64,000 nt of DNA from Notolepis coatsorum. Its lineage: Eukaryota > Chordata > Actinopteri > Aulopiformes > Paralepididae. The notes below the pieces were generated by a model that was not told the DNA's origin, ran no database searches, and was given only the letters and a program-made list of their open reading frames with translations. Numbering within the stretch: position 1 is the first letter of the stretch; each line of letters starts with the position of its first letter. Both the position numbers and the translations under genes were made by a program. This document shows positions 23,001-25,358 of the stretch, one piece after another. The stretch lies in the NCBI GenBank assembly GCA_963971535.1, contig OZ020586.1:74878949-74942948 (forward strand), given 5' to 3'.

Positions 23001-25358
23001 ATGATACAGGTCATAAAATGATAGTACAGTAGAAAAGTTTAAATAAAATAGGCAGTGTAAACAATATAACTATATTAATAATATAATTAACTCTGAGTAT
23101 GCGCATATGAGAAAGTAGGCAGTGTAAATCAAGGTGCAGATGAGGGTCTATATGCCCCATTAGTTATATTTGCATTACAATAAATATAGTTACAATAGAC
23201 ACTATAATCTAAATATATGTTATTCGTAAGTATACAGTATACACAGGTGCATAACGCTGCTGTCGGGACAAAACCTCATAACTCCATTTTTTGATTTTTT
23301 TTTTAAATTATATAAATCAACTCCGTAGATCATCCTCCATATGTGTGTGTGGGTTTTACAAAGTTTAAACAATGGGAAAGCATTAAACCGATCATCTGTC
23401 TAAACCTCCTAACTCTATTCACCCTCAAATCTGTGTTAGTTTTTTTCATCTGCTGAAAAGTTGGGTTTTTGGAGTTATGAGGTTTTGTCCCGACAGCAGC
23501 GAAAGGTACGTATGGCATGATATACTTCCATACGTTATACGTTGTCTGTTTAGGTATAACACGTCTCCTGTCTGTCCGACACTCTTACTCTTCCCCCCCC
23601 TAACCTCCCGTAGACGTCTCCAAAGCGGCAGAAGGACGCGGAAGGGGAGGGAGACTCGAAAGCGGACGGCAGGAAGCCCGGTGCAGAGACCAACGACAAG
23701 GCCGCTTCTCAGCCCACTGACCTGAGCGGGTCCAGACCAGAGGCCCGGGCCAAGCCTGCTACCGAGGGCCAGAAAACGGCAGACAAGGTACCACACAGAG
23801 TAATAATAACTTTATTTATATAGCACCTTTCATACATGGATTGCAGCTCAAAGTGCTTCACAGCAAATAGCATAAAACGAACATAGGCATAACATTTGCA
23901 TACAGTTGAGTTGACAGAATATAGAAACGTGCAGACATAAGAATAGGTATAAAAAGACAGTAAAAGTAGTGCAATGTAGAAAGTTCAGACATAAGAATAG
24001 GCATAAAATAAGGACCATGTTGCACTTCATATTATTTATTTGTAAAAAAAAATTATACTCATTGAATAAATAATGTTGAATGAATTGTTCCCCCTCTTTT
24101 AATAATTCTATAATTAATAATAGCAGAAAATGTGTTGCCTCACGGTGTCTGTATATCCATTTTTATTATGTGTCCATGAAAATGATGATGAATGCAGCCA
24201 TAAAGATATGATTTCCTTACGCAGGAAAGATGGTCTGTTTACTTTTCTGATAACTACATCACCGCATGACTCGTAAATGTTCAGACAAGAATAATAGTAT
24301 TTGGTTACTTATTTGTGATACTATGTATACATGCAATTCAATTACCACATTTTCTTTCAATTAGCTAATTTGGTCACGGAGGTCAGTTTTTGTTACAGTT
24401 AACAGGCACTTTGGGCAGAGCTGTTTTGCCGGCTGTATGACGTACAGGCGTAGAGACAGCTCTGAGTAGGAGTGTGTTTCAGGCTGTATGACGTACAGGC
24501 GTAGAGACAGCTCTGAGTAGGAGTGTGTTTCAGGCTGTATGACGTACAGGCGTAGAGACAGCTCTGAGTAGGAGTGTGTTTCAGGCTGTATGACGTACAG
24601 GCGTAGAGACAGCTCTGAGTAGGAGTGTGTTTCAGGCTGTATGACCGTCGTACAGGCGTAGAGCAGCTCTGTGTAGGAGTGTGTTTCAGGCTGTATGGCG
24701 TAGAGAAGCTCTGTGTAGGAGTGTGTTTCAGGCTGTGACGTACAGGCGTAGAGCAGCTCTGTGTAGGAGTGTGTTCCAGGCTGTGACGTACAGGCGTAGA
24801 GCAGCTCTGTGTAGGAGTGTGTTCCAGGCTGTGACGTACAGGCGTAGAGCAGCTCTGTGTAGGAGTGTGTTCCAGGCTGTGACGTACAGGCGTAGAGCAG
24901 CTCTGTGTAGGAGTGTGTTTCAGGCTGTATGACCGTCGTACAGGCGTAGAGCAGCTCTGTGTAGGAGTGTGTTCCAGGCTGTGACGTACAGGCGTAGAGC
25001 AGCTCTGTGTAGGAGTGTGTTTCAGGCTGTATGGCGTAGAGCAGCTCTGTGTAGGAGTGTGTTTCAGGCTGTGACGTACAGGCGTAGAGCAGCTCTGTGT
25101 AGGAGTGTGTTTCAGGCTGTGACGTACAGGCGTAGAGCAGCTCTGTGTAGGAGTGTGTTCTCTCCCCTCATGAACTGTAAATCAAAAGCAACCATTGTTA
25201 TATCAGAGAAACATGAAATTGTAATTGTAATACCATGAAACGAAACCAAAACAAATGATAAAGTCAAATTGAGGATACATCTGGAAGATGGTTCATTCTG
25301 AATAATAACATTGCAGTGCCGTTTGTTGTCATTGCAGGCTGTGACGGACAGCGCCTAA
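5012..25358 (+). CDS. hdgf: hdgf, PWWP-domain growth factor / chromatin reader (six coding exons)
   Basis: The joined exons are 5012-5098, 8976-9052, 13080-13224, 13979-14137, 23614-23787 and 25338-25358: 663 nt, 220 residues plus stop, all phases matching at GT/AG sites. Residues 1-29 begin [20 protein letters not shown], the HDGF-family start, with the PHWP form of the PWWP motif at residues 24-27. The PWWP fold continues through [12 protein letters not shown] and [11 protein letters not shown] to about residue 95. The acidic, lysine-rich tail carries [14 protein letters not shown] and a basic stretch [16 protein letters not shown], which looks like the bipartite nuclear signal. HDGF proteins bind methylated nucleosomes, DNA and heparin, act in the nucleus and are also released as mitogens. 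Human HDGF is about 240 residues, so this looks complete. The introns are loaded with minisatellites and transposons. A fish hdgf paralogue rather than the single orthologue is possible. Confidence 0.93.
5636..6275. repeat. 40-bp minisatellite in hdgf intron 1
   Basis: About 16 head-to-tail units of cgttagctgttactaatcca plus gacagattttacgttatttg, with few differences between units. One irregular unit (6160-6190) carries an extra ttagcctgttac. There are no spacers, so it is not a CRISPR array. Confidence 0.95.
6674..6960 (-). mobile_element. LINE 3' end (reverse orientation) with (TGAA)n tail
   Basis: It begins with atgaatgaatgaatg and aaaactttatttaacagatt. On the - strand this is a poly(A)-like signal followed by a short tandem tail. 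The segment gcagaatgggtacaatacag also occurs at 41750 and (part) at 2706. Confidence 0.55.
6961..8285. other. hdgf intron 1 sequence
   Basis: A/T-rich intronic sequence; I see no ORF or element ends in it that I can support. Confidence 0.4.
8289..8440 (+). mobile_element. SINE
   Basis: It runs from gtagcactcaacactttgat through ttcctgctgacttgtcgt to the tail ggataaaagcgtcagccaaa and tgactaaatgtaaat. The 5' part recurs at 27190-27290 and the 3' part at 548-640. Confidence 0.6.
8976..9052 (+). CDS. hdgf: hdgf coding exon 2
   Basis: The exon reads [19 protein letters not shown] then FFGTHE plus AC of a split Thr codon. The acceptor is ttgttcacag and the donor GTGAGT. It is the core of the PWWP domain, close to human HDGF IDEMPEAAVKSTANKYQVF. 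Confidence 0.93.
9133..10490. repeat. 18-20-bp minisatellite in hdgf intron 2
   Basis: About 70 units of gcactgagacagagagacgg and variants (gagatga, gatatgg). Frames through it on the - strand stay open for hundreds of codons (LSQCPSLC repeats) only because the unit lacks stops. Confidence 0.95.
10499..10912. mobile_element. Short TIR element
   Basis: The ends are attcctctaatagtaacccc and, reversed, attcctctaatagtaaccgg. Subterminal ggcttgtatt repeats occur at both sides (10524, 10552, 10808, 10867). About 410 bp with no coding region. The superfamily is not assigned. Confidence 0.6.
11085..11325 (+). mobile_element. LINE 3' tail
   Basis: The segment ends catttcactgtatacctgta then gtgacaaataaaactcttg, the kind of 3' UTR found on CR1/L2-group LINEs in fish. 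No coding part remains. Confidence 0.4.
12098..12262. repeat. G/C-rich minisatellite in hdgf intron 2
   Basis: About seven units of 22-26 bp built from acacacgccgcgcatcgcca and acatacacaacgccacgcgt. Confidence 0.85.
13080..13224 (+). CDS. hdgf: hdgf coding exon 3
   Basis: After the split Thr the exon reads [20 protein letters not shown], then [20 protein letters not shown] and THEVYDDE. The acceptor is accccacag. The best donor is GAG|GTCAGT at 13225, which leaves phase 0 to match exon 4. The last ~39 nt of this exon plus the donor are repeated downstream as a minisatellite (13535-13800), so other donors are possible. Confidence 0.88.
13264..13532 (+). mobile_element. LINE 3' end with (ATT)n tail
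   Basis: It carries remains of a reverse transcriptase C-terminus ([14 protein letters not shown]) followed by ttaagcgccttgggtctcct, actatataaat and attattatt. It sits inside the first unit of the exon-3-derived minisatellite in hdgf intron 3. A like tail is at 62150-62262. Confidence 0.6.
13535..13800. repeat. Exon-3-derived minisatellite in hdgf intron 3
   Basis: About five units of 49-51 bp, each holding aacaaccccactgacacaca, tgaagcctatgatgatgag and gttagtgttgtc. The unit is the last ~39 nt of hdgf exon 3 plus its donor (exon: aacaaccccactgtcacaca, gaagtctatgatgatgag|gtcagtgttgtc). Confidence 0.9.
13979..14137 (+). CDS. hdgf: hdgf coding exon 4
   Basis: The exon encodes [20 protein letters not shown], then [20 protein letters not shown] and [13 protein letters not shown]. 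The acceptor is tttgtgtcttag and the donor GAG|GTCAGC. The GSSDE..LVIDE segment is diagnostic for the HDGF tail (human GSSDEEGKLVIDE). It is 159 nt, phase 0 at both ends. Confidence 0.88.
14715..14943 (+). mobile_element. tRNA-derived SINE
   Basis: Box A-like ggtagagcggtcgtctgg and box B-like ttaccgcttcgattccc stand at the usual spacing, then a body with gtgagcaagacacttaaacc and the tail cgctttggataaaagcacta. A reverse copy of the same family lies at 28320-28562. Confidence 0.75.
14990..15985 (-). mobile_element. LINE fragment, 3' part of RT ORF and 3' UTR
   Basis: On the - strand the decayed frame gives [53 protein letters not shown] and [19 protein letters not shown]. These are the palm end and thumb of a non-LTR reverse transcriptase. 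Its earlier part ([20 protein letters not shown]) is at 17206-17345, and hAT elements separate the two. A C run lies at 15724-15749. The clade is not assigned. Confidence 0.65.
15986..16321. mobile_element. hAT-like left end
   Basis: It starts agggatgccccgatcgatcg with repeated gatcgg/ccgatc, typical of fish non-autonomous hAT termini. The right end was not found. It may have been lost when the next hAT inserted. Confidence 0.4.
16322..17205 (-). mobile_element. hAT deletion derivative with BED zinc finger remnant
   Basis: The ends are tagggctgaccttcgaagct and, reversed, cagggctgtcttaaatactt, with repeated cttcgaagc. The flanks atagggaa and caagggaa agree at 6 of 8 positions, as for an old hAT duplication. 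On the - strand 16991-16767 reads [20 protein letters not shown] then [13 protein letters not shown], a BED-type zinc finger start (VW.HF...C..C), the usual N-terminus of hAT transposases. A 38-bp unit is doubled at 17013-17088. Confidence 0.6.
17206..17345 (-). mobile_element. LINE fragment, RT N-terminal part
   Basis: The - strand reads [40 protein letters not shown] and AKIIPL, which is the start of a LINE reverse transcriptase. It probably belongs to the same copy as 14990-15985. Confidence 0.6.
17588..18950. repeat. ~44-bp minisatellite (split by a hAT)
   Basis: Units of cactcctctcactcacacac and agcgatcagagtaagacaca occur in two blocks, 17588-17703 and 18596-18950, about nine in all. 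Confidence 0.9.
17704..18595. mobile_element. hAT element, CAGGGCTC(G/C)AGACTAAC ends
   Basis: The inverted ends are cagggctcgagactaac and, reversed, cagggctccagactaac, with gggacgg repeats inside both. The target duplication acacacat (17696-17703, 18596-18603) is 8 bp but sits in a CA-rich minisatellite, so it is weaker evidence than usual. It is nested in 17346-19384 and shares 18022-18190 with the hAT at 2090-4340. Confidence 0.75.
19385..19492. mobile_element. piggyBac-like element, left segment (interrupted)
   Basis: This segment and 22297-22645 together match 63565-64000 (atcagatgttatccaaaaag, gatcacgcttattgatt). A Mutator-like element splits them. The far left end is missing here. Confidence 0.5.
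19870..21760 (-). mobile_element. L2-like LINE 3' tail, reverse, split by a solo LTR
   Basis: 19875-20097 and 21459-21760 are the reverse complement of the L2 3' UTR (tgtcatacagaagtacagaa, aatgcttcttactgtt). The right block contains a partial duplication of itself (21500-21590 and 21600-21690). The solo LTR 20098-21458 interrupts it. Confidence 0.75.
20098..21458. mobile_element. Solo LTR, copy 2
   Basis: A 1361-bp unit of the same family as 674-2007 starts TGTTACGAAGG and ends CAGTTACA, with the exact 5-bp duplication ctatg (20093-20097, 21459-21463). It lies in an L2 tail, which lies in MULE A, so it is the youngest of the three. It has no internal region. The two LTR copies differ at many positions, so their source insertions are not recent relative to each other. 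Confidence 0.75.
22297..22645. mobile_element. piggyBac-like element, right segment
   Basis: It closely matches 63655-64000 (ccacacgttttccaggccgg, gcgctatatagcgtcggggg-like hairpin) and ends ggcactcaatgtgTTAA. The TTAA edge and TTAACACATTGAGTGCC end are piggyBac-like. Confidence 0.55.
22925..23280 (-). mobile_element. LINE 3' end, reverse orientation
   Basis: It starts tcctttattgatccccttgg and ggaaattcag. The reverse strand (gaatttccccaaggggatca, ataaagga) is a common fish LINE terminus. The remainder is A/T-rich decay. A + strand copy of this end is at 31560-31600. Confidence 0.45.
23614..23787 (+). CDS. hdgf: hdgf coding exon 5
   Basis: This 174-nt exon has phase 0 at both ends and encodes a hydrophilic Lys/Glu/Pro-rich tail beginning [20 protein letters not shown]. 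The acceptor is acctcccgtag and the donor [19 protein letters not shown] matches human HDGF DSPKRPKEAE, the second half of the nuclear localisation signal. Confidence 0.87.
23800..24070 (-). mobile_element. LINE/SINE 3' end, reverse orientation
   Basis: It begins taataataactttatttata then tagcacctttcatacatgg, and has an internal doubled motif acataagaataggcataaaa. The reverse orientation gives a typical (TTATTA)n-tailed fish retroposon end. Confidence 0.45.
24425..25160. repeat. 48-bp minisatellite resembling hdgf exon 6 acceptor (intron 5)
   Basis: About 15 units of gctgtgacgtacaggcgtag, agcagctctgtgtaggagtg and tgttccag (early units have gctgtatgacgtacaggcgt and gagacagctctgagtagg). Each unit contains cag|gctgtgacgtacag. 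The true exon 6 boundary is cag|gctgtgacggacag. The 48-bp unit is open in the hdgf frame ([16 protein letters not shown]). Confidence 0.93.
25338..25358 (+). CDS. hdgf: hdgf terminal coding exon 6
   Basis: The last coding exon gives AVTDSA and TAA after the acceptor gtcattgcag. Its first ~30 nt resemble the unit of the minisatellite that ends 180 bp upstream, so this exon boundary and that array are probably related by duplication. Confidence 0.8.
   Translation, partial: AVTDSA

Follow-up and report, generated by a model that had tools for sequence, protein, structure and literature searches.

Can the edge of an exon give rise to a minisatellite in the adjoining intron, and do the repeated splice sites then matter to the gene? 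This question is raised by an hdgf-like gene on the plus strand of a 64,000-nucleotide stretch of DNA from the fish Notolepis coatsorum (contig OZ020586.1, positions 74,878,949 to 74,942,948; this whole stretch is called the window, and all coordinates refer to it). Its fifth intron holds a tandem array whose units resemble the start of the inferred terminal exon, exon 6. The original prediction held that either the exon edge had seeded the array or the exon was a captured array unit. Our analysis favours seeding: the intron 5 array is probably an old and worn exon-edge minisatellite, of the kind termed a mirage, which is spliced out with its intron and has little effect on splicing. A short tandem duplication would have taken in the edge of the terminal exon; the duplicated edge would have been amplified within intron 5 by slippage or unequal exchange and diverged afterwards; and the array would now be removed together with the intron, leaving splicing largely unaffected.

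That a tandem array exists was borne out, Tandem Repeats Finder (TRF) calling it at 24438-25159 with a period of 48 and 14.8 copies, but its units proved less uniform than the 48-bp repeats, each with the exon-edge motif, that had been described. Complete units measure 42 bp (two), 48 bp (six), 51 bp (four) or 54 bp (two) and are followed by a single 46-bp partial one, and the motif CAGGCTGTGACGTACAG is present in seven of the 15 (units 7-10, 12, 14 and 15). CAG precedes all units except the first, which follows CCG. Between the end of the array and the start of the inferred terminal exon at 25338 lie 176 bp, close to the 180 bp originally given.

Where the motif is present, the similarity is real: CAGGCTGTGACGTACAG and the exon edge CAGGCTGTGACGGACAG are identical at 16 of 17 positions, as predicted, and this edge is the best match of the array elsewhere in the window. 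When 160 distinct 17-mers of the array were compared with the remainder of the window on both strands, matches of at least 15 of 17 occurred only at 25332-25336, i.e. at the exon 6 edge. Gapped alignment of array and edge extended to 36 columns. In a search of both strands of the 64 kb outside the array (80-bp windows, step 20), the edge was the top match with a score of 33, followed by two other places with 29 and 28. The score of 33 was contributed by the seven motif-bearing units, the other eight scoring 17-26. A score of 33 was attained by none of 20 000 dinucleotide-shuffled versions of the edge (maximum 30; extrapolated p about 1.4e-5), nor by any of 1500 random 80-bp windows compared with the intron 5 array. 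The 40 exonic bases alone scored 26, which was equalled in five of 20 000 shuffles and one of 4920 random windows. These alignments make a common origin of array and exon edge likely, although not proven. Exact-pattern scans of viral contigs, where fish DNA would not be expected, returned no match to the exon 6 edge or to the unit core.

We then asked how the array would behave as a set of splice sites. Scored with an acceptor table, the 14 CAG sites before units reached 2.5, at the 82.6th percentile of the 4360 plus-strand AGs, as against 8.9 (98.9th percentile) for the true exon 6 acceptor, and they are accompanied by further AGs at -12 and -15. The proposed role of the units as decoy or alternative acceptors is therefore weak here, and regular splicing into unit starts is unlikely, although other AGs of intron 5 may be used cryptically. 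Since no good pyrimidine tract precedes its acceptors, we expect the array to influence splicing little.

Nor are all units stop-free in the hdgf frame, as had been claimed. Read in this phase, units 1-5 and 11 (six of 15 starts) give Ala-Val-stop (AV-stop). From units 6-10 (five of 15) the frame stays open for 18-80 residues, up to a stop at 24930; from units 12-15 (four of 15) it leaves the array and stops at 25236 after 40-86 residues. A tail of 16-residue repeats could therefore be added from some units only, and not from each, as first envisaged. All 14 complete units are multiples of three in length, although the individual indels that distinguish the unit types (by eye +2, +1, +4 and -8) are not. 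On the minus strand, two frames stay open through the entire array; antisense coding was considered and set aside, as by eye these open stretches contain no Met.

A second array in the same gene bears on the direction of copying. In intron 3, the 49-bp unit spans the exon-intron boundary, so that exonic and intronic sequences are both matched: against the array, the exon 3 edge scored 68 for its exonic and 50 for its intronic part, values reached by none of 2959 and none of 2966 random windows, respectively. Six GTTAGT sites lie in this array, three as strong as the true donor (7.6) and three scoring 4.1; read-through of the true donor would end at a stop codon at 13387. The matched part of exon 3 contains the NNPT codons common to the hepatoma-derived growth factor (HDGF) chains in PDB, and for this reason copying from exon to array is favoured in intron 3. 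The last residues of the exon, THEVYDDE, have no match to the PDB HDGF chains except a Tyr, and this end could itself have been reshaped by the array. A probable long interspersed nuclear element (LINE) remnant splits the exon 3 edge copy from the remaining array; its 47-bp tail matches 62219-62264 (83%), and its translation, which had no database match, presumably resembles LINE C-termini. When sequences related to the exon 3 peptide were sought by pattern, 20 matches came from viral and 59 from genome contigs, none of them confirmed; neither collection would be expected to contain fish DNA.

Several observations weigh against an exon-edge origin of the intron 5 array or against its silence in splicing. 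The similarity is one-sided: on the intron side of the exon 6 edge only CAG is common to units and edge, and the intron-side score of 10 was reached by 4437 of 4920 random windows. When any array of the window was allowed, 1.2% or 1.3% of 1500 random windows scored at least 33, so that about 0.36 such matches would be expected over 27 junctions. Exon 6 is itself a prediction from sequence, and donor 5 is weak (3.4). The AGs within the 54-bp units (24655 and 24943) score 4.3 and an AG in the gap between array and exon (25206) scores 5.2; the accepted acceptors of exons 4 and 5 score 5.4 each. An unrelated minisatellite might by chance resemble 17 exon-edge bases and have been noticed since many arrays and edges were inspected; such an origin would fit an intron-side similarity that goes no further than CAG, the score of 29 elsewhere in the window and the 1.3% of random windows that reach 33 against some array. 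We nevertheless consider it unlikely, since the match is with the array of the adjoining intron, is placed exactly at the acceptor and was attained by none of the random windows or shuffles when that array was used.

The converse of seeding, in which an array unit with a usable acceptor turned into the terminal hdgf exon and supplied a new short C-terminus, would suit a last coding stretch of just 21 bases, ending AVTDSA, and a similarity that starts at the acceptor and continues into the exon. However, the units contain nothing that corresponds to the intron side of exon 6, whose acceptor also greatly outscores those of the units, and intron 3 favours the exon-to-array direction; we regard such capture as improbable. 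Even less probable, in our estimate, is an array that actively regulates the hdgf C-terminus through decoy or alternative acceptors. CAG before 14 of 15 units, a frame open for 18-86 residues from units 6-10 and 12-15 and two array AGs at 4.3 could be cited for it, but the unit-start acceptors are poor and flanked by AGs, and six of 15 unit starts end in AV-stop. Of the two options originally offered, seeding from the exon edge is to be preferred, and it is plausible, because the intron 3 array of the same gene matches exon 3 end, donor and intron start, including the NNPT codons.

Coordinates of hdgf, msto1 and array features in the window
Feature	Position	Strand	Basis or remark
Minisatellite in hdgf intron 5, 15 units	24432..25161	+	Units in order: 51 bp (four), 54, 42, 48 (four), 54, 48, 42, 48, 46-bp partial
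Acceptor CAG and coding part of inferred hdgf terminal exon (AVTDSA*), sequence echoed by array units	25335..25358	+	Open frame, acceptor score, AATAAA
hdgf exon 5	23614..23787	+	Open frame in joined coding sequence; weak donor, 3.4
hdgf inferred coding exons	5012-5098, 8976-9052, 13080-13224, 13979-14137, 23614-23787, 25338-25358	+	Joined open frame
Edge copy of intron 3 array: end of exon 3, donor (after 13224) and first bases of intron 3	13186..13265	+	Score 107 to array
Putative LINE 3' end, partial, between exon 3 edge copy and rest of array	13266..13527, breakpoints approximate	.	Tail match and translation
Minisatellite in hdgf intron 3, 49-bp units with near-copies of exon 3 end and donor	13529..13795	+	Tandem array
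35-bp array entering pyrimidine tract of hdgf exon 2 acceptor (intron 1)	8823..8975	+	Intron-side match
35-37 bp array, last copy being the msto1 terminal exon acceptor	31235..31526	-	Five upstream copies with CAG acceptors, two further with CTG

The inferred hdgf coding sequence comprises 663 bases in a single open frame of 220 codons plus stop. Exon 3 matched PDB chains named hepatoma-derived growth factor (2b8a, E 4e-21), with slightly poorer matches to the paralogues HDGF-related proteins 2 and 3 and PSIP1. Exon 6 is predicted from the open frame, the acceptor score of 8.9 and an AATAAA about 140 bp past the exon start. Pfam scans of stop-masked translations did not report those split hdgf exons that they covered; the scans comprised six frames of 26001-64000, the three plus-strand frames of 12001-24002 and two plus-strand frames of 6001-12001. 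At the other end of the gene, the intron 1 array resembles the exon 2 acceptor on the intron side (score 24; none of 2983 random windows) and not on the exon side (score 9; 2899 of 2985).

A second gene, msto1, lies on the minus strand, with nine exons from 48557 to 30973 that form one open frame with its sole stop at the end. Eight exons were placed by tblastn with a human MSTO1 protein (E 8e-14 to 0.026, after three further rows at E 1.4-1.7 had been discarded) and the ninth, 33210-33098, by eye; the model is limited to these nine placed exons. Pfam gave a single sub-threshold Tubulin_3 match (E 0.018) in this region. The terminal acceptor belongs to an array that repeats pyrimidine tract and CAG, after which the units read CTGAACC and the exon CCGTGGC. 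The five upstream CAG acceptors score 9.0 versus 8.4 at the true site, and none of the five is in frame. Repeated sites that equal the true one in strength occur in the window at junctions other than that of hdgf exon 6, and a more interesting test case than hdgf exon 6 is offered by the msto1 terminal acceptor. As placed, exon 36960-36776 has a GC rather than a GT donor (36775-36776, minus strand). A CT-rich 15-bp array (46340-46418, minus strand) immediately precedes the msto1 acceptor at 46326.

With 6244 of 64 000 bases covered by the 24 arrays listed in the window, some arrays would be expected to fall at exon edges. We rotated 25 arrays set by hand (the 24 listed, two of them extended, and one added) against the 27 junctions. 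One, three and seven junctions lay within 0, 20 and 200 bp of an array, whereas rotated arrays averaged 2.69, 3.12 and 6.38, and the observed counts were reached in 3584, 2236 and 1922 of 4000 rotations, respectively. A general enrichment of arrays at splice sites, with three of 27 junctions within 20 bp, was accordingly rejected. Donor 3, which the probable LINE separates from its array, falls outside the 200-bp count; with it, four of 27 junctions would lie within 20 bp, the rotation counts given here referring to the set without it. Outside arrays, two other junctions scored at least 33 against some array, 40476 (33) and 36353 (48); judging from the sequences around them, both are probably simple-sequence matches (CT and CA runs).

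Elsewhere in the window, two 40-bp arrays (19660-19789 and 22044-22144), about 2.3 kb apart, have units that are reverse-complementary by eye and are perhaps the ends of a DNA transposon. The arrays at 47928-48045 and 52558-52703 have similar units in opposite orientation, again by eye. Pfam matches within 36001-45998, 46003-56000 and 56002-64000 were to reverse transcriptase and ALKBH8_N, probably from LINE elements, and, below threshold, to a hAT dimerisation domain.

By itself the hdgf intron 5 array is minor. What lends the locus weight is that several exon-edge arrays lie within 64 kb: a worn one in hdgf intron 5, one in hdgf intron 3 split by a probable LINE, and one abutting the terminal exon of msto1. 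A tentative generalization, which we think more doubtful than not, is that tandem duplication in this genome repeatedly sets copies of splice sites beside the true ones, at hdgf donor 3, at the msto1 terminal acceptor and perhaps at hdgf acceptor 6. If this were so, splicing would have to pick the last of six near-identical msto1 sites by position or context, or else protein ends would vary with array length. With its several exon-edge arrays, the locus is a natural test of how the spliceosome chooses among repeated sites.

Among fish, the available text on Sparus aurata myostatin-2 reports an intron 1 repeat allele with a predicted acceptor of 0.99 versus 0.98 for the real one (PMC3045353). 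As here, a repeat in a fish intron carries a predicted acceptor above the real one; unlike here, units copied from an exon edge are not described in that text. No fish mirage was named in the titles or abstract openings listed by searches of open-licence literature, none of which paired hdgf with minisatellites. The closer precedent comes from lancelets, where mirage minisatellites are described in Adh3, the globins BflGb6 and BflGb9 and troponin C, together with imperfect PGBD5 duplications; according to the authors, the data suggest that normal splicing is undisturbed (PMC3087553, PMC3902484, as far as their available text goes). Judged from the same text, the arrays here share with them tandem repeats at an exon-intron boundary, involving 5' or 3' splice sites, AG/GT signals in many but not all units, and unit sizes within the reported extremes of 10-160 bp. 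They differ in lying in hdgf and msto1 of a fish, and the hdgf intron 5 array differs further in being similar on the exon side only and 176 bp away from the edge. This array has the tandem structure (15 units) and the splice signals of a mirage, weak as these are (2.5, CAG before 14 of 15 units); at the boundary it scores 26 on the exon side and 10 on the intron side, with CAG as the only intron-side overlap, whereas the intron 3 array repeats the boundary itself. The available text of PMC3087553 also proposes exon-edge minisatellites as a route to new introns. By this comparison, the exon-edge arrays of the window appear to be of a kind already known from lancelets as mirages.

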